Source: Shewanella frigidimarina (lineage in GTDB: Bacteria; Pseudomonadota; Gammaproteobacteria; Enterobacterales; Shewanellaceae). From it: 64,000 nt of DNA. Below the pieces are notes generated by a model. It did not search any database. It saw only the letters and a program-made list of their open reading frames with translations, and was not told the origin of the DNA. Positions 37,772 to 46,352 of this stretch are shown here, one piece after another. The position numbers and the translations under genes are program-made. The DNA is taken from NCBI RefSeq assembly GCF_003797125.1, contig NZ_RKKE01000003.1, positions 248,001 to 312,000 on the forward strand. The letters are read 5' to 3'. How positions within the stretch are numbered: the stretch's first letter is position 1; each line of letters starts with the position of its first letter.

Positions 37772-38908
37772 ATGGACACACATGCAGCCCTTTATAAACA
37801 GGGTCAAGATCGCCTTGATTATTTACGCCAATTTACCCAACGTCAGCCCGTATCACTACAACAAAAAATGGCCAACATTGGGATATCTCGTCGAGACTTC
37901 ATTAAGTGGACCGCATCGGTCTCCGCAATGTTCGCCTTGCCCCTACCCTTTAGTAATCTGGTTGCCGAAGCGGCTGAATTAGCCGACCGAGTACCGTTAA
38001 TTTGGTTACATTTAGCCGAATGTACCGGGTGCTCTGAGTCATTAATTCGTACCGATTCGCCCAATTTAGACACATTGATTTTTGATCATATCTCGCTTGA
38101 ATATCATGAAACCTTAATGGCAGCCTCTGGTTGGCAAGCCGAAGAGAACCTAGAGCATGCACTAGAAACTTACAAAGGTCGGTATTTACTGGCCGTTGAA
38201 GGTGCCGTCCCTACCGCCAATAACGGCACCTTTTTAACCGTAGGCTGTAAAGGTCACACAGGTTTACACATTGTTAAAGAAGCGGCTGAAAATGCTGCTG
38301 CAATTATCTCTGTCGGGACTTGCGCTGCCTTTGGTGGTGTACAAGCCGCTGCACCCAATCCTACTGGTGCAAAAGGCGTTTACGAAGTGGTCAATAAGCC
38401 GGTGATTAACTTAGGCGGTTGTCCTCCGAGTGAAAAAAACATTGTTGGCACGTTAATGTATTTCATTATGTTCGGTAAGTTACCTGCGCTGGACATGTTT
38501 AATCGTCCTAAATGGGCATACGGTGCACGGGTACATGATAACTGTGAACGCCGTGGTCGCTTTGATGCTGGTGAGTTTGTTGAAGAATTTGGCGATGAAG
38601 GTGCTAAAGAAGGTTACTGCCTTTATAAGGTCGGCTGTAAAGGCCCTTATACCTACAACAACTGCCCAACTGAGCGCTTTAACCACCACACCAGTTGGCC
38701 GGTGTTAGCAGGTCATGGCTGTATGGGTTGCTCTGAACCGAATTTTTGGGATGACATGGCGGACTTTGAAAAACCGCTAGGACGCCAACTTTTACATGGC
38801 ATTGATGCCACCGCTGACACCATTGGTGCGGTCATTTTAGGCGCTACCGTTGTTGGTATTGGCGCCCATGCAGTTGCTAGCGTATTTGCTAAGCCTTTGG
38901 AGGAATAA
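37772..38908 (+). CDS. hyaA: [NiFe] hydrogenase small subunit
   Basis: A 378-residue electron-transfer subunit of a membrane-bound uptake hydrogenase. A twin-arginine signal (SRRDFIKWTASVSAMF, about residues 40-55) directs export; the iron-sulfur ligands lie in LAECTGCSES, SVGTCAAF, GGCPPS, HDNCERR, GYCLYKVGCKG, NNCPTERF and HGCMGCSEPNFW. The C-terminus has a hydrophobic anchor helix (about 345-370). The positions where oxygen-tolerant enzymes carry two extra cysteines (CTCC, WGCVQ) read CTGC and FGGVQ, so a standard proximal [4Fe-4S] cluster and oxygen sensitivity are expected. First gene of the operon; the large subunit follows after two bases. Confidence 0.96.
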   Translation: MDTHAALYKQGQDRLDYLRQFTQRQPVSLQQKMANIGISRRDFIKWTASVSAMFALPLPFSNLVAEAAELADRVPLIWLHLAECTGCSESLIRTDSPNLDTLIFDHISLEYHETLMAASGWQAEENLEHALETYKGRYLLAVEGAVPTANNGTFLTVGCKGHTGLHIVKEAAENAAAIISVGTCAAFGGVQAAAPNPTGAKGVYEVVNKPVINLGGCPPSEKNIVGTLMYFIMFGKLPALDMFNRPKWAYGARVHDNCERRGRFDAGEFVEEFGDEGAKEGYCLYKVGCKGPYTYNNCPTERFNHHTSWPVLAGHGCMGCSEPNFWDDMADFEKPLGRQLLHGIDATADTIGAVILGATVVGIGAHAVASVFAKPLEE

Positions 38909-38910
38909 TC

Positions 38911-40614
38911 ATGAGTAAACGTGTCGTTATCGACCCTATCACCCGTATCGAAGGCCATTTACGTGTCGAAGTTGAAGTTGATGACAATAATGTCATTACC
39001 AAGGCTTGGTCTTCGTCGACCTTATGGCGGGGCATTGAGGTTATTTTAAAAGGCCGAACTCCAATGGATGTGGGCTTAATTGTGCAGCGTATTTGTGGCG
39101 TATGTACCTATTCGCACTATCGTTGTGGTACTGAGGCCGTTGAGAATGCCCTCGGAGTTAAGATCCCTCTTAATGCAAAATACTTACGCAGCTTAATGCA
39201 GTCGTCACTCTACATGCATGATCATATTGTTCATTTTTATCATTTACATGGTCTTGATTGGGTAGATGTTGTATCGGCATTAAGTGCCGACCCAGCCTTA
39301 GCCGCTAAAGTGGCAATGAATTACTCTGATGCACCGATTGCTGCCGGTGAAGGTGAATTAAAAGCGGTACAGGCACGCGTAAAAGGCTTGGTCGAAACCG
39401 GAAAACTAGGACCGTTTGCCAATGCCTATTGGGGTAATGGTACTTATCGTTTTACCCCTGAGCAAAACCTCATTGCGTTATCGCATTATTTAAAAGCACT
39501 TGAAGTACAACGTGTTGCGGCTGAAATGTTGGCTATTTTTGGTGGTAAATCGCCACACCCACAGTCTATTGTTGTGGGCGGCGTAACCTCAGTGCGAGAC
39601 ATGTTAAGCCCTGCCCGTTTACAAGAATGGAAACAAAAGCACGCCATCGTGCAAGACTTTATTGAGCGAGCTTACCAAGCCGATATTGTGATGGCAGCAG
39701 AAGCATTTGGCTCTGAAGCCAGTGTACTTGGCGGTGTAAATGTTAACAGCTTCTTGTGCGGTGAAGATTTTATCACAGCCAATGGCGAGTATTTATTTAA
39801 CCAAGGAGTCATTTTAAACGGTGATTTAGCCAATGTATTGGATATTGATCCGAGCTTGATTAAAGAAGACGTGACTCACGCTTGGTATAAAGCCGATGGT
39901 CCGCAACATCCATATCAAGGCACCACCATTCCTGATTACACCGGGTTTATTGAGCGCGACACTGTGTATGGCAAATTGCCGACCATTAATGGCGATGGTA
40001 AATACTCGTGGGTTAAGTCTCCGCGTTACCAGGATGAACCGATTGAAGTGGGTCCACTAGCCTGTTTATTAGTTAACTATGCTCGCGGAAACCAAGTTGT
40101 GGTCAATGCGGTTGATGGTTTGTTAGCTCGCACTGGCTTGCCTCTTGAGGCGTTGTTTACCACTTTAGGCCGTACTGCTGCACGTATGTTGCAAACCGTA
40201 TTGGTTGGCCAAGCCAGTTTGCAAACCTTTGATGCTTTACTGATAAACATACAGTCGGATCAGTCTACTTACGTTAAACCTGAGATAGACCCAGACCGCG
40301 TTTACGAAGGTTATTCGATGATTGAAGCTCCTCGCGGCATGTTAAGTCATTGGATCCGGATTAAAGATGCCAAAGTCGAAAACTACCAAGCTGTGGTTCC
40401 TACTACCTGGAACGCAGGCCCTGTGGATGCTAACGGTAAAATGGGCCCATACGAAGCTTCGTTGATTGGTTTGAAACTTGAAGACCCAACTAAGCCGTTA
40501 GAAGTCATTCGCATTATTCATTCCTTTGATCCTTGTATGGCCTGTTCCGTTCACGTGATGGATTACAAGAAACATACCCTAGGTCAATTTAAAATTGATC
40601 CAAATGGGTTTTAA
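38911..40614 (+). CDS. hyaB: [NiFe] hydrogenase large subunit
   Basis: A 567-residue catalytic subunit carrying the Ni-Fe(CN)2CO centre, which oxidises H2 in the periplasm after co-export with HyaA. The four nickel-binding cysteines are in RICGVCTYSH near the N-terminus (about residue 60) and in DPCMACSVH near the C-terminus; the maturation protease is expected to cut after that histidine, removing a short peptide beginning VMDYKKH. Length equals that of E. coli HybC. Other family blocks (GPLACLLVNYARG, ESPRG-like EAPRGMLSHW) are present. It belongs to the same operon as hyaA, hyaC and hyaD. Confidence 0.96.
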   Translation: MSKRVVIDPITRIEGHLRVEVEVDDNNVITKAWSSSTLWRGIEVILKGRTPMDVGLIVQRICGVCTYSHYRCGTEAVENALGVKIPLNAKYLRSLMQSSLYMHDHIVHFYHLHGLDWVDVVSALSADPALAAKVAMNYSDAPIAAGEGELKAVQARVKGLVETGKLGPFANAYWGNGTYRFTPEQNLIALSHYLKALEVQRVAAEMLAIFGGKSPHPQSIVVGGVTSVRDMLSPARLQEWKQKHAIVQDFIERAYQADIVMAAEAFGSEASVLGGVNVNSFLCGEDFITANGEYLFNQGVILNGDLANVLDIDPSLIKEDVTHAWYKADGPQHPYQGTTIPDYTGFIERDTVYGKLPTINGDGKYSWVKSPRYQDEPIEVGPLACLLVNYARGNQVVVNAVDGLLARTGLPLEALFTTLGRTAARMLQTVLVGQASLQTFDALLINIQSDQSTYVKPEIDPDRVYEGYSMIEAPRGMLSHWIRIKDAKVENYQAVVPTTWNAGPVDANGKMGPYEASLIGLKLEDPTKPLEVIRIIHSFDPCMACSVHVMDYKKHTLGQFKIDPNGF

Positions 40615-40644: not shown

Positions 40645-41313
40645 ATGGAACATATTGCAACCCATAATCGGCAGCTAATATTTACTCCAGCGATTCGAAT
40701 ATTTCACTGGTTACGCGCTCTGGCCATTTTGGTATTAGTGATCACCGGATTTTATATCTCGTGGCCATTTTTAGTGGCGCCTGCCAGCACTGATGTATTG
40801 GTACAAGGTTGGATCCGGTTTGCACATATCATTTTTGGATTTGTGCTCACCAGTATCACTTTGGTGCGTTTTTATTTGTTTTTCTTCAGTCGCAACAACA
40901 TTGAAAGACGTTCGTTTAAAGATGTGCTGAGTGTGAAAAGCTGGATAACACAATTAAAATCCTATTTATGGATGGGTAATTTGCATAAAGCTGGGGTTTA
41001 CGGACCGTTACAGTTTATGACTTATGTGGCAATTTCGTTTGTTGCCTTGATTGTGTGTATCACGGGTTTAGTACTGTACGCCAATGTGTACCACTTAGGT
41101 TTAGGCGGGTTACTAGGCGATGTATCTGCATGGTTAACCGCACTTTGTGGCGGCTTAGCACCACTTAGAACCTTTCACCATTATTTAACTTGGGCCTTCA
41201 TTATTTTTGTGGTGATCCATGTGTATATGGCGGTGTGGTCGGGTATTCGCTTTAAACATAATTCAGTCGACTCAATTGTGTCTGGCTATGACTATCACAA
41301 AGATCATAAATAA
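40645..41313 (+). CDS. hyaC: Ni/Fe-hydrogenase b-type cytochrome subunit
   Basis: A 222-residue inner-membrane dihaem cytochrome b that anchors the hydrogenase and passes electrons to quinone. Four hydrophobic helices are visible (about 20-40, 55-75, 125-150 and 180-205), with haem-ligand histidines in IRIFHWLRAL, RFAHIIFG and the paired FHHYLTW / VIHVYMAVW. A strong AGGAGG precedes the ATG. Position after hyaB is the usual one. Confidence 0.95.
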   Translation: MEHIATHNRQLIFTPAIRIFHWLRALAILVLVITGFYISWPFLVAPASTDVLVQGWIRFAHIIFGFVLTSITLVRFYLFFFSRNNIERRSFKDVLSVKSWITQLKSYLWMGNLHKAGVYGPLQFMTYVAISFVALIVCITGLVLYANVYHLGLGGLLGDVSAWLTALCGGLAPLRTFHHYLTWAFIIFVVIHVYMAVWSGIRFKHNSVDSIVSGYDYHKDHK

Positions 41314-41328
41314 GGTGAATCTATTATT

Positions 41329-41883
41329 GTGAAAAAAATATTGCTGTTAGGTATAGGCAATGTATTGTACGCCGATGAAGGAGTCGGCGTGCATTTTGTC
41401 AATTATATCAAAGAGAAATACCAATTTAGCCACCAAACTGACAGCATAGATATTGTCGACGGTGGCACCTTAGCTCAAGGCCTTATTCCGATGATAAGCC
41501 AGTACGACCATTTAATTGTGGTCGATACGGTGAACAGTGTTGGCGTGGAGCCTGGTGAAGTGTACTTTTTCGATTTTGATCACGCCCCTGCTGAAATCGA
41601 TTGGCAAGGTAGTGCTCATGAAGTGGAAATGCTGCAAACACTCAACATGATGGACATTGTGGGTGATAGGCCACACACGTTTGTATTAGGTGTTACCCCT
41701 ACGGTGATTGAGCCAATGACTTTGGGGCTTACGCCACATTTACATGCCGCCATTCCGCTAATGGAACACGCCCTGTTAACCCATTTAACCGACTTAGGGT
41801 TTAGCCAGCAGATTGTGAATGAAATAACGGTTGATCAGGTGATTCCTGACGCTTATAAGCGAGGTTGCTATGTCGATGCATAA
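41329..41883 (+). CDS. hyaD: Hydrogenase maturation protease
   Basis: A 184-residue endopeptidase that removes the C-terminal tail of HyaB after nickel insertion. The metal-sensing residues of the HyaD/HybD family are in place: Glu in LYADEGVGV (about 17), Asp in VVDTVN (about 62) and His in SAHEVEM (about 93). Start is GTG 41329 after AAGGTGAA. It ends 14 bases into the next gene, showing tight coupling. Confidence 0.95.
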   Translation: MKKILLLGIGNVLYADEGVGVHFVNYIKEKYQFSHQTDSIDIVDGGTLAQGLIPMISQYDHLIVVDTVNSVGVEPGEVYFFDFDHAPAEIDWQGSAHEVEMLQTLNMMDIVGDRPHTFVLGVTPTVIEPMTLGLTPHLHAAIPLMEHALLTHLTDLGFSQQIVNEITVDQVIPDAYKRGCYVDA

Positions 41884-43885
41884 CATTCGATTTGATTTTG
41901 TATGCCAACGCCATGTGCCGTTATATGAGCACTTGTGCAATCAATACCTTGAACGCAGCGAATTTAATATCAGTATTGGTGCTGAATCCGAGCCTCAAAC
42001 CAGTAAAATACGTTACTTTATTGAGGCCTTTGCTCCTCAAGCGCAGCTTGAATCGTTAGCCGATGAGATCGCCAGTGATTTCTTGTTATCTGTTTGGTTG
42101 CTTGACACCCACATTCAGCGTATAGAGCAGCACAGCGGGCAGCGAAAACCATTTAACATTAAGCCGCTTCACTCTGGTTTACCGCTGAATTTTTGCCAAC
42201 ATTGCCAGCCAAAATTTGGCGATAATCAACATCCCTCTTTTGGTAATATTAATCTACAATGTCATCATTGTATGGGGCATGAAAAACTCAGTCGTGATGA
42301 AAAATCGTTAACTCAGACCGATATCGCCGCAATGGAAAACCGCTTACTCAGCCATAAGTCTCTGCCCTTACCTATTCTTGGGATCACGTTATGGTTAACC
42401 CCACCAGCGGCCATATTCTCCTCAACCATACAACCCTCAACCATATCGCAAAATGCAGATGAACAACTGACAAACTCATCACAGACCAATGCGTCAATGA
42501 CCAAAACAATAAAATATCAACGGCCTCGAATATTAGTCTGTAATCCCAATTCTTTAAACAGTCATTTTATTGTCAATGACAGCCAAGTGTTGGCATTATC
42601 TAGCATCGAAAAACCCTTGCTAAGAGTACGACCAAGTAGCGAGCATCCCAGCTTATTAGCGCCGCTGTATGATATTCAATTTGCTGAAAATCGTTTATTA
42701 GTGATACTCACTGAAGTACTGCGCCAAAAAGGCATTAATTGGTTGCATGTCACTAGTGATATTGAACCACATACTAGCCAAGAAGCCCTGCTCAATAAGC
42801 CGTTGCGTTTAGCCAGTATTAATCAACATTGGTTACCGATCACCACCCTAAGCGATGGCAGCATACCGTTACCGACTAATGTGACCTGTTTGCATGATGA
42901 GCATCATTACCAAGATGACCAACATACGTTCAAAGTTCAAAGCACTAAAACTGATATTAATTGGCAAGTGAGTGACAACGGTGCTAAATCGTCTACTTCA
43001 GCGTCAGCTTCACCGATAACTTTGCCACCTGTTTTAGCCAGCTCTTGTGCAGAAGACTCAAGCACAATAACTGACAATATTACTACCAGCTTATGTGCAT
43101 TGAATGCTGCGGTATTACGTTGTGATCCCAATAAAAATCATCATAAAGCGCAATTTGTGAAACATGCTGCGGTATTGTATTTCAGCCAACAAAATGCTTG
43201 CCAAATTGTCACACTCGACAGCCAAAGTAACCCTGAATTATTTTTCCAATTACCGACGTTGCCGACATCAGGTTATGAGATTTGTCATAGTTTGTCTGAG
43301 TCGCCGCAAAAAAGTCTGTTAGATAAGTTTAAACAGTTATTTCCAGCCGAATATAATCAATTATTGGATCTTCACATTCAAGCCGACGATGGTGCATTGT
43401 CTCAGCTAATGGCTGTTGCAACCCTAATTATTGGCGCTTATCCGGTAGAAACTGCTCAACGAGTGACCGTAACCGAACTTGCCGATAAATTTATTGCTTT
43501 GGCGATGTCTCATCATGGCAATAATGCACCACGCATTGATTTTCCTCTCACCAAAGGCGCCGCGCATCGTAGCCTCAATTGGTGTAAAACCTTGGGCACA
43601 TTAATGAGTTTCAAGTTGGCAGGCGAGACTAACTTAGCAAAACTTGCTTTTGCATTTCATGACTCGTTTGCCGACTACTTAAGCCATTGGGTAGAACATT
43701 TAGATCAAAATATTGGCGTAAAACAATTAGTGATTGCTGGAAGCGAATTTGCTAATCCAGTGCTAACTGAACGGGTGCAATTACGTATTGGTAAAAACTT
43801 TCCACTGGTGGTCAATCCATTATTGGATTTAGATGGCGTTAATATCGCAATTGGTGGGCTATATCTCAAACAAAGACGTAGATAA
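41870..43885 (+). CDS. HypF-like hydrogenase accessory protein (degenerate HypF paralogue)
   Basis: A 671-residue protein between hyaD and hypF. I do not know a named family for it, but its layout mirrors HypF in reduced form. Residues about 1-90 replace the acylphosphatase domain; a zinc-finger pair follows (FCQHCQPKFG, LQCHHCMGHEK); a low-complexity, Ser/Thr-rich middle comes next; and the last 170 residues resemble the Kae1-like end of HypF: LAFAFHDSFADYL, then LVIAGSEFANPVLTERV and LDLDGVNIAIGGLYL, compared with VFCGGVFQNKTLL and INDGGIALGQLWY in HypF. The HxxxH metal motif and VQGVGFRPF loop of HypF are absent, so it is unlikely to be a carbamoyltransferase. It starts inside hyaD (ATG 41870, GAGG before). 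Probable assembly partner. Confidence 0.75.
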   Translation: MSMHNIRFDFVCQRHVPLYEHLCNQYLERSEFNISIGAESEPQTSKIRYFIEAFAPQAQLESLADEIASDFLLSVWLLDTHIQRIEQHSGQRKPFNIKPLHSGLPLNFCQHCQPKFGDNQHPSFGNINLQCHHCMGHEKLSRDEKSLTQTDIAAMENRLLSHKSLPLPILGITLWLTPPAAIFSSTIQPSTISQNADEQLTNSSQTNASMTKTIKYQRPRILVCNPNSLNSHFIVNDSQVLALSSIEKPLLRVRPSSEHPSLLAPLYDIQFAENRLLVILTEVLRQKGINWLHVTSDIEPHTSQEALLNKPLRLASINQHWLPITTLSDGSIPLPTNVTCLHDEHHYQDDQHTFKVQSTKTDINWQVSDNGAKSSTSASASPITLPPVLASSCAEDSSTITDNITTSLCALNAAVLRCDPNKNHHKAQFVKHAAVLYFSQQNACQIVTLDSQSNPELFFQLPTLPTSGYEICHSLSESPQKSLLDKFKQLFPAEYNQLLDLHIQADDGALSQLMAVATLIIGAYPVETAQRVTVTELADKFIALAMSHHGNNAPRIDFPLTKGAAHRSLNWCKTLGTLMSFKLAGETNLAKLAFAFHDSFADYLSHWVEHLDQNIGVKQLVIAGSEFANPVLTERVQLRIGKNFPLVVNPLLDLDGVNIAIGGLYLKQRRR

Positions 43886-43940: not shown

Positions 43941-46352
43941 ATGAAACCATTACAGCAAGTTACCATTATTGTTAAAGGTATTGTGCAAGGGGTTGGTTTT
44001 CGCCCCTTTGTTTTTCGTTTGGCACATCAGTTAAATTTAGTCGGTAGCGTGCTAAATAATCACCTTGGGGTGACGATTGTTTTACAAGGTAATAGCGAAC
44101 TGATTGAACAGTTTATCGATAAATTAGCTAAATCTCCGCCGCCATTAGCGCGCATTGATGCCATTGAGGTTACTCATCAAGCTCAATTAAGTTTATTTGA
44201 CCAATTTAGTATTATTGATAGCCATGCCGCTACTGACGAACATGCAAATGTGGCTATTTCGGCCGACATGAGTATTTGCCGAGATTGTCTTAACGACATT
44301 AATGACCCTCAAAATCGCCACTATCAATATCCATTTACCAATTGCACCAATTGCGGTCCGCGCTACACCATTATCAACGCCCTGCCTTATGACCGATGCA
44401 ACACTGCCATGGCTGATTTTGAAATGTGCGATGATTGCCACGCCGCTTATATCAATCCAATGAATCGACGCTACCATGCACAACCAGTGAGTTGCCCACA
44501 TTGTGGTCCACAATTAACCTTTAGCGTTATCAATGCTCGTGCTGAATGTCTTTATGATTCATCGATGTTGATGGCATTAGAGCAAGCCGTCGAAATGATA
44601 AACCGTGGTGGCATAGTGGCCATTAAAGGTTTAGGCGGTTTTCATTTGGTGTGTGATGCCACCAATAACGAAGCGGTTGCAGCCCTGCGTCAACGTAAAC
44701 AACGCCTCGCCAAGCCATTAGCGATAATGGTGACTAACTTGGCCCAGGCGAAATTATGTGTCAGCGGTACTGAAACGGAATGGCAAGTATTAACCAGCCC
44801 TGAGAAGCCGATTACCTTGATGACCAAACGTGTTGCTAGTGTTGATGGTAAAGATAATGGTAGAGATAATTGCGGAAATATTCACCCTATCGCACTGAGT
44901 CCATTGCTAGCGCCGGGTATTGATCGCCTTGGAGTATTTTTACCCTACACACCATTACATCATTTATTGATGCAGCGATTACACAAACCCATTGTGGCTA
45001 CCAGTGCCAATCGCAGCGGAGAACCAATTATTGGTAATCAAGCTGAGATTGAGCAGCATTTAAGCCATGTAGTCGATGGGATCCTCGACCATAATCGGCC
45101 GATTATTAATGCCTGTGATGACAGCGTGGTACAAGTGATTGACGGGCAGCTGCAAGTCATTCGATTAGCTCGCGGTTATGCGCCGTTAACCATTAATTTG
45201 CACTCACCGATGCTATCAAACAGTAAAAACAGCGTATTGGCTGTTGGCGCACAACAGAAAAATACGGTCGCATTCGGTTTTGCCGATAATCTGATCGTAT
45301 CGCCGCACATTGGGGATTTATTCACTCTAGAAACAGAGCAGTATTTTAGCCGAAGCTTAGCAACATTTAAGCGTTTGTATGACTTTATTCCGAGTCATAT
45401 AGTGCACGATAATCACCCGCAATATGCGCCGACACAATGGGCAGTAAACTACCAATCTGAACATCGCCTTTTGCCATCTCATTGCATTGGCATACAACAC
45501 CACTACGCCCATGTTTTGTCTGTTATGGCGATGCACCAACGCACTGAGCAAGTATTAGGATTCAGTTTTGATGGCACAGGCCTAGGTGATGACGGCACAT
45601 TATGGGGCAGCGAGGTAATGCTGGCTGATGTGCACGGTTTTACCACGGTGGCCCACTTTAGTTCGTTTAAGTTAATTGGCGGTGAGCAAGCGATTAAACA
45701 CCCAGTTAGAATTCTGCTGGCATTATTGTTTGAACAAATGTCGCTTGAACAAGTACTTTCACTCCCCATTGCCGCTATCGCCGACTTAGGCAGCAAAACT
45801 GTCACTAATTTATATCAGCTGTGGCGTAACAATAGCCATTGTATTGAATGTCGATCTGTTGGGCGTTTATTTGATGCTCTTGCTGTAGCGTTAGGTTTTA
45901 TTGGTAGCTCGCAGTACGAAGGTCAAGCGGGCATGATGATTGAAACAGCAGCCAATGCCTATTATACCGAATCAAATATTGAGCCTTTATCTGTAACGCT
46001 CAACACCTTAAGCGACCAAGAGTCGTTACCTATTCAATGGCACAGTAGCGACTTTATTACTCAATTGGTTAACTGCGCGGTGGAATACTCACATAACCCT
46101 TTAATTAAAAAACAAATATGTTGGCATTTTATCAATATGATTAGTCAGCAATTGGATAGAGTTGGTCAACAATATCCCCAATTACCACAGGTATTTTGTG
46201 GTGGTGTATTTCAAAACAAAACCTTACTCAGCCAGTGTATTGATGATTGTAAACGTGGCCAACGGCAAATTTTACCCAGTGGCCATATTCCCATTAATGA
46301 CGGTGGTATTGCATTAGGCCAATTGTGGTATGGCATACATCACATGGCGTAA
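43941..46352 (+). CDS. hypF: Carbamoyltransferase HypF
   Basis: An 803-residue enzyme that makes the carbamoyl group later turned into the cyanide ligands of the Ni-Fe site, passing it to HypE. All domains are complete: acylphosphatase (VQGVGFRPFVFR, about 15-26), two zinc fingers (CRDCLND...TNCTNCGPRYT; CDDCHAA...SCPHCGP), a YrdC-like domain (KGLGGFHLVCDATN, KRLAKPLAI-like segment) and a Kae1-like domain with HHYAHVLSVM and GGVFQN...INDGGIALGQ. Length is near the usual 750-800. A 55-base gap separates it from the HypF-like gene, so it is still in the hya operon. Confidence 0.96.
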   Translation: MKPLQQVTIIVKGIVQGVGFRPFVFRLAHQLNLVGSVLNNHLGVTIVLQGNSELIEQFIDKLAKSPPPLARIDAIEVTHQAQLSLFDQFSIIDSHAATDEHANVAISADMSICRDCLNDINDPQNRHYQYPFTNCTNCGPRYTIINALPYDRCNTAMADFEMCDDCHAAYINPMNRRYHAQPVSCPHCGPQLTFSVINARAECLYDSSMLMALEQAVEMINRGGIVAIKGLGGFHLVCDATNNEAVAALRQRKQRLAKPLAIMVTNLAQAKLCVSGTETEWQVLTSPEKPITLMTKRVASVDGKDNGRDNCGNIHPIALSPLLAPGIDRLGVFLPYTPLHHLLMQRLHKPIVATSANRSGEPIIGNQAEIEQHLSHVVDGILDHNRPIINACDDSVVQVIDGQLQVIRLARGYAPLTINLHSPMLSNSKNSVLAVGAQQKNTVAFGFADNLIVSPHIGDLFTLETEQYFSRSLATFKRLYDFIPSHIVHDNHPQYAPTQWAVNYQSEHRLLPSHCIGIQHHYAHVLSVMAMHQRTEQVLGFSFDGTGLGDDGTLWGSEVMLADVHGFTTVAHFSSFKLIGGEQAIKHPVRILLALLFEQMSLEQVLSLPIAAIADLGSKTVTNLYQLWRNNSHCIECRSVGRLFDALAVALGFIGSSQYEGQAGMMIETAANAYYTESNIEPLSVTLNTLSDQESLPIQWHSSDFITQLVNCAVEYSHNPLIKKQICWHFINMISQQLDRVGQQYPQLPQVFCGGVFQNKTLLSQCIDDCKRGQRQILPSGHIPINDGGIALGQLWYGIHHMA

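Follow-up and report, generated by a model that had tools for sequence, protein, structure and literature searches.

In Shewanella frigidimarina, the gene between hyaD and hypF (hereafter X) probably encodes the Shewanella HydE of the hydABCDE type. This protein would be a HypF-derived, catalytically dead maturation factor of the hyaABC uptake hydrogenase. We analysed a window of 64,000 nucleotides. An earlier note on this DNA had placed a 671-residue gene between hyaD and hypF, and an open reading frame was found exactly there. The cluster order is hyaA-hyaB-hyaC-hyaD-X-hypF-hypB-hypC-hypD-hypE-hypA. The ATG start codon of X sits within the 3′ end of hyaD, so that X overlaps the hyaD stop codon, and hypF begins 55 bp after X ends. 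Coordinates are collected in Table 1.

Table 1. Gene X, its predicted domains and motifs, and neighbouring genes in the window.
Feature	Position	Strand	Basis or remark
hyaA, hydrogenase small subunit	37772..38908	+	ORF, synteny
hyaB, hydrogenase large subunit, clade including Campylobacterota HydB	38911..40614	+	PF00374, tree
hyaC, cytochrome b subunit	40645..41313	+	ORF, synteny
hyaD, maturation protease, overlaps X start by 14 bp	41329..41883	+	Pfam HycI, 2e-29
X (probable HydE-type, HypF-derived pseudoenzyme), 671 aa	41870..43885	+	ORF, AlphaFold2 model, HypF fold, Campylobacterota homologues
Acylphosphatase-like fold, residues 3-84, without GxVQGVGFRP P-loop	41876..42121	+	DSSP
Single HypF-type zinc finger, C109xxC112-x18-C131xxC134	42194..42271	+	Four Cys invariant
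YrdC-like domain, residues about 149-335	42314..42874	+	Models, hhalign
SSxEKP motif, near-invariant, residues 244-249	42599..42616	+	Counterpart of HypF LTSPEKPI
Kae1-like domain, residues 341-671; HxxxH not conserved	42890..43882	+	Pfam, AlphaFold2, VIA, hhalign
Pfam HypF_C_2, residues 549-644	43514..43801	+	E 8.8e-6
hypF, intact true HypF	43941..46352	+	TIGR00143, 738 bits; catalytic residues invariant

X is a genuine, conserved gene. Compared with orthologues that are 92% and 87% identical, its dN/dS is 0.11–0.13, equal to that of hypF. A first search placed X directly 3′ of hyaD in 27 of 36 genus members, and a scan of genome contigs found it in the same place at 65 further loci; X follows hyaD at every syntenic locus inspected in these two sets. 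Across the genus, X is present in 108 of 129 genomes. The [NiFe] large subunit is found in the same 108 and both are missing from the other 21. X is intact in 105 of the 108 and frameshifted in three (G023, G485 and G515). In G485 (C1:3117771-3119605) and G515 (C1:1266906-1268826) the broken X lies beside an intact hyaB. These could be sequencing errors, or natural knock-outs in which X is dispensable. Separately, the hydrogenase cluster appears to be decaying in Shewanella marina (L053/L100), G023 (L055), G439 and G475. Here hyaB is interrupted in all four, again with sequencing error possible; S. marina has a split hyaD as well, and G023 a broken X. Three Shewanella loci (L056, L101 and L118) carry two tandem hyaABC sets 5′ of a single hyaD-X-hypF, and one X may serve two hydrogenases there. 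Among 398 sampled Pseudomonadota genomes, X is confined to the family of the window. Searches of the class (369 genomes) and phylum (398) returned weak HypF matches only, or X of this family. A match in genome G724 was discarded, as it falls in a low-complexity frame rich in His, Gly and Arg. A contig of 9975 bp from an 'Aestuariirhabdus' MAG (L090) has a Shewanella-like hyaABCD-X-hypF-hypB-hypC arrangement, consistent with a mis-binned Shewanella contig or horizontal transfer. No X was found in viral contigs.

The predicted structure of X resembles HypF along its whole length. The earlier note had proposed structure prediction and profile comparison against HypF; fold searches with the predicted structure gave HypF as the top match. 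Briefly, an AlphaFold2 model built from a 53-sequence alignment had a pLDDT of 84.9 and a pTM of 0.86. The nine best Foldseek matches to this model are all HypF (best E 2.5e-15), followed by TsaD/Kae1. VIA-align superposed 544 residues on Thermococcus kodakarensis HypF (Z 18.0; model 2-670 against chain 1-762; 10% identity). Together, the model and fold searches identify all four HypF domains in X: acylphosphatase-like, zinc finger, YrdC-like and Kae1-like. The neighbouring HypF was modelled as well, less reliably than X (pLDDT 79.9, pTM 0.75, fingers worst); it shares with X the N-terminal strand-helix order of the acylphosphatase region and the YrdC-like and Kae1-like cores. According to DSSP, the acylphosphatase-like fold of X is beta-alpha-beta-beta-alpha-beta (E3-12, H17-27, E33-40, E47-56, H57-71, E77-84). 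The counterpart in HypF is E5-14, H20-30, E34-40, E43-50, H52-64, E71-80. Pfam HypF_C_2 was detected in all 53 X homologues scanned (best E 3.2e-8), which bears out the Kae1-like C-terminus proposed previously; the window's own copy, at 26.1 bits, falls below the cut-off of 27. A phmmer search of X against the PDB gave no useful match.

What X lacks are the residues for HypF chemistry. The acylphosphatase P-loop GxVQGVGFRP is invariant in HypF and absent from 53 X homologues. The HHxxH metal motif occurs in the neighbouring HypF and not in X. Both losses had been pointed out in the earlier note. The missing acylphosphatase loop does not mean a missing domain, since the fold is kept and a YrdC-like domain is there too. 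The likeness of the zinc finger was partly right: the spacing is that of HypF finger 1 and the four cysteines are invariant, across the 53 homologues as well as the Campylobacterota proteins described below, but X has one finger and not two. In the YrdC region, the helix and ligand loop of HypF (243-260) are replaced by a disordered segment (184-210) and the TSAN (SAN) loop region is missing. Most of the first Kae1 lobe is replaced by disordered residues 373-401. In hhalign comparisons, HypF QHHYAHVLSV aligns to QWKASMMSV of the Sulfurovum protein and to a His-free segment of X. Nothing in X is equivalent to the HypF Asp/Gly nucleotide loop FDGTGLGDDG. Against TIGR00143, the NCBIfam equivalog for the HypF carbamoyltransferase, X scores 13.8 bits; the cut-off is 466.1. 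Invariant polar residues do occur in X (R555, D557, W571, D598, S599, D602, R639 and N643), and C12 and C23 are near-invariant. Because these HypF motifs and loops are lost, X is predicted to be catalytically dead. Judged from motifs and models, it is highly likely to be without HypF catalysis and is very probably a pseudoenzyme. HypF1 of Ralstonia/Cupriavidus is a truncated, functional HypF variant. Both are HypF variants with losses; HypF1 is truncated, whereas X keeps all domains and has lost the catalytic residues. The name HypF1 appears in PMC5350229.

The earlier note explained X by duplication of hypF followed by loss of catalysis. Derivation from HypF and disappearance of the active-site motifs are borne out. 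However, BLASTP of X against the window's HypF gave nothing significant, so a recent local duplication is rejected; X belongs to an old, separate lineage shared with Campylobacterota. Direct hhalign of X with HypF yielded partial, low-probability segments only. Hence, Campylobacterota intermediates were needed. A tblastn search of X against plasmids found a single record, a Sulfurovum mangrovi plasmid. It encodes a 641-aa 'hypothetical protein' directly after the large subunit, cytochrome b and a HyaD-type protease. In Sulfurimonas paralvinellae, where it is likewise plasmid-borne, the X homologue lies between cytochrome b and hypF, with the protease elsewhere. An X profile scores these proteins at 1.3e-29 (Sulfurimonas) and 2.4e-25 (Sulfurovum) versus 1.5e-5 for the best true HypF (hmmsearch). 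Both carry Pfam zf-HYPF twice, above the cut-off. In hhalign, the Campylobacterota homologues match HypF along its full length (617 columns, E 7.7e-27), and their alignment to X spans 537 columns (E 1.4e-18). This chain of sequence similarity, together with the fold, makes X, the Campylobacterota proteins and HypF one homologous set. We hold it very likely that X is homologous to HypF and to the proteins in the HydE position. In S. mangrovi, HypF itself is split into two adjacent frames (L169:11715-13956), one for an acylphosphatase/finger protein and the other for the remaining 595 aa.

Gene order ties X to HydE. HydE of Helicobacter pylori (HP0635), Wolinella, Sulfurimonas and Sulfurovum is encoded after the genes for the small subunit, large subunit, cytochrome b and protease. 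X occupies this place in the 27 same-genus genomes, at the 65 loci, in Paraferrimonas and in G524, a member of another genus of the window's family, as does its Sulfurovum homologue. The order common to Shewanella and Campylobacterota is hydA-hydB-hydC-(hydD)-X, next to or near hypF. X is assigned to HydE because its Campylobacterota homologues occupy the hydE position; the comparison covered the Sulfurovum and Sulfurimonas proteins, through which the probable link to HP0635 and Wolinella HydE runs. The Sulfurimonas and Sulfurovum proteins are homologous to X over their whole length, accompany the same hydrogenase clade and, like X, have no HypF catalytic motifs. They differ in having two zinc fingers, where X has one, and in being only about 18% identical to it. 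The tree places the HyaB proteins of Shewanella, Paraferrimonas and G524 together with the large subunits of Campylobacterota and with Sulfobacillus in a single 100/100 clade that excludes the Hyb and Hup enzymes, consistent with a shared hydrogenase type. The radical-SAM HydE of [FeFe]-hydrogenase is distinct from X and the hydABCDE-type protein. HydE of Sulfurospirillum (PMC4794192) is such an [FeFe] maturase and was rejected as a relative of X.

X follows the structural genes and not the hyp genes. In Paraferrimonas, X comes after hyaABCD, and hypFBCD and hypA are on another contig. In G524, X again follows hyaABCD, and the hypF that comes next is of a different type (35% identical). This suggests that the hyp genes were replaced in G524 and X was retained. 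At the same locus (L163:8364-13896), the finger of X is shortened to CRHC-x7-CSHC, and the genes 3′ of X are the other-type hypF, an unassigned 323-aa ORF and hypA. True HypF, with catalytic residues intact, is encoded once per genome in the genomes checked.

Passages of three papers that cite Benoit 2004 (PMC7695850, PMC5557546 and PMC3120642) report that mutation of hydE in H. pylori abolishes hydrogenase activity and leaves urease in place, and that nickel does not rescue the mutants. Although the requirement dates from 2004, the function of hydE is still described as unknown. Elsewhere, HydD/HydE are said to localise hydrogenase to the membrane (PMC4992972), which differs from a role in active-site assembly. 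In S. oneidensis, SO_2096 is hyaD and SO_2093 is hypB (PMC7784907). By gene order, SO_2095 should be the X orthologue; a literature search for SO_2095 found no paper.

The published H. pylori mutants argue for an essential role in hydrogenase activity, and we consider X likely to be needed for hydrogenase. Its mechanism can be proposed only tentatively. The surface inherited from HypF (acylphosphatase-like domain, zinc knuckle, YrdC shell and Kae1 C-lobe) would be a non-catalytic docking platform. X would hold the HyaA/HyaB precursor, Hyp partners, or both, while the cofactor is inserted and the enzyme assembled, ahead of cleavage by HyaD and export through Tat. Carbamoyl chemistry would be left to the single true HypF. 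Such a docking or assembly role fits better than nickel delivery, given a dead HypF that is reported to be needed for hydrogenase and not for urease, without rescue by nickel. X might instead regulate the step between HypE and HypF, negatively or positively: by imitating HypF it would bind either protein and adjust the transfer of the carbamoyl group. The retained full-length HypF fold and the adjacency of hydE and hypF in Shewanella, G524 and Sulfurimonas agree with this. We nevertheless regard it as unlikely. X stays with hyaABCD both in Paraferrimonas, whose hypF is distant, and in G524, whose hypF belongs to a different type. Nor would hydrogenase activity be expected to depend on a mere tuner, and such dependence is reported for H. 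pylori. Rate covariation points both ways: the partial correlation of X is 0.37 with HypF but 0.02 with HypE, values that, like all those given here, have operon linkage and a divergent subgroup as confounders and provide a lead only.

The strongest covariation is with HyaA (0.56, compared with 0.43 for HyaD), despite two genes between. X could instead be a small-subunit chaperone, standing in for HyaE/HyaF or HybE in FeS assembly, Tat proofreading or membrane attachment. HyaE/HyaF (HoxO/HoxQ) and HybE are, like X, hydrogenase-specific accessory proteins encoded beside the structural genes, and possibly do the same job. The earlier note saw no HyaE/HyaF-type proteins here and was right: none of the seven genomes searched has HyaF, and the window's genome has no match to HyaE. 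X could therefore fill their role, and the membrane localisation attributed to HydD/HydE in PMC4992972 points the same way. However, the covariation with HyaA falls to 0.28 without seven divergent species, tying with hyaD and hypD. Furthermore, the small subunit has an ordinary CTGC motif, and the need of O2-tolerant enzymes for HyaE/HyaF may not apply. We find this reading doubtful. X is not HyaE or HyaF by sequence: neither PF07449 (HyaE) nor PF04809 (HyaF, HupH) matches X or the window's genome, and X, unlike those proteins, has the HypF fold. A new enzymatic activity on the HypF fold, to which the many invariant polar residues and near-invariant C12 and C23 might belong, is most improbable. 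The HypF ligand-binding loops are all missing or disordered, even in the less diverged Campylobacterota proteins, and X evolves fast, with the highest mean divergence of 11 cluster proteins. Finally, low identity to HypF and the three frameshifted copies might indicate a functionless, decaying hypF copy. Purifying selection and distribution refute this in practice: the dN/dS is low, nearly every copy is intact, co-occurrence with hydrogenase is complete and X is conserved over phylum-level distance.

Two proposals are new here: that X is the Shewanella HydE, and that proteins in the HydE position are HypF-derived pseudoenzymes. It is possible, though we would not yet favour it, that HydE is a general class of such pseudoenzymes, having evolved alongside a single hydrogenase clade, the hydABC type, in two phyla. 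Its members would be obligatory non-catalytic platforms on which Fe(CN)2CO is delivered or subunits are assembled, a step outside the textbook HypA-F scheme, with X as the degenerate, single-finger Shewanella form. With the identification of X as HydE, the hydE gene would gain a structural identity, that of a dead relative of HypF. A pseudoenzyme would thus join a maturation pathway usually given as HypA-F and a protease only. As X occurs in every hydrogenase-bearing Shewanella genome sampled, the question of what HydE does could be moved to tractable laboratory species.
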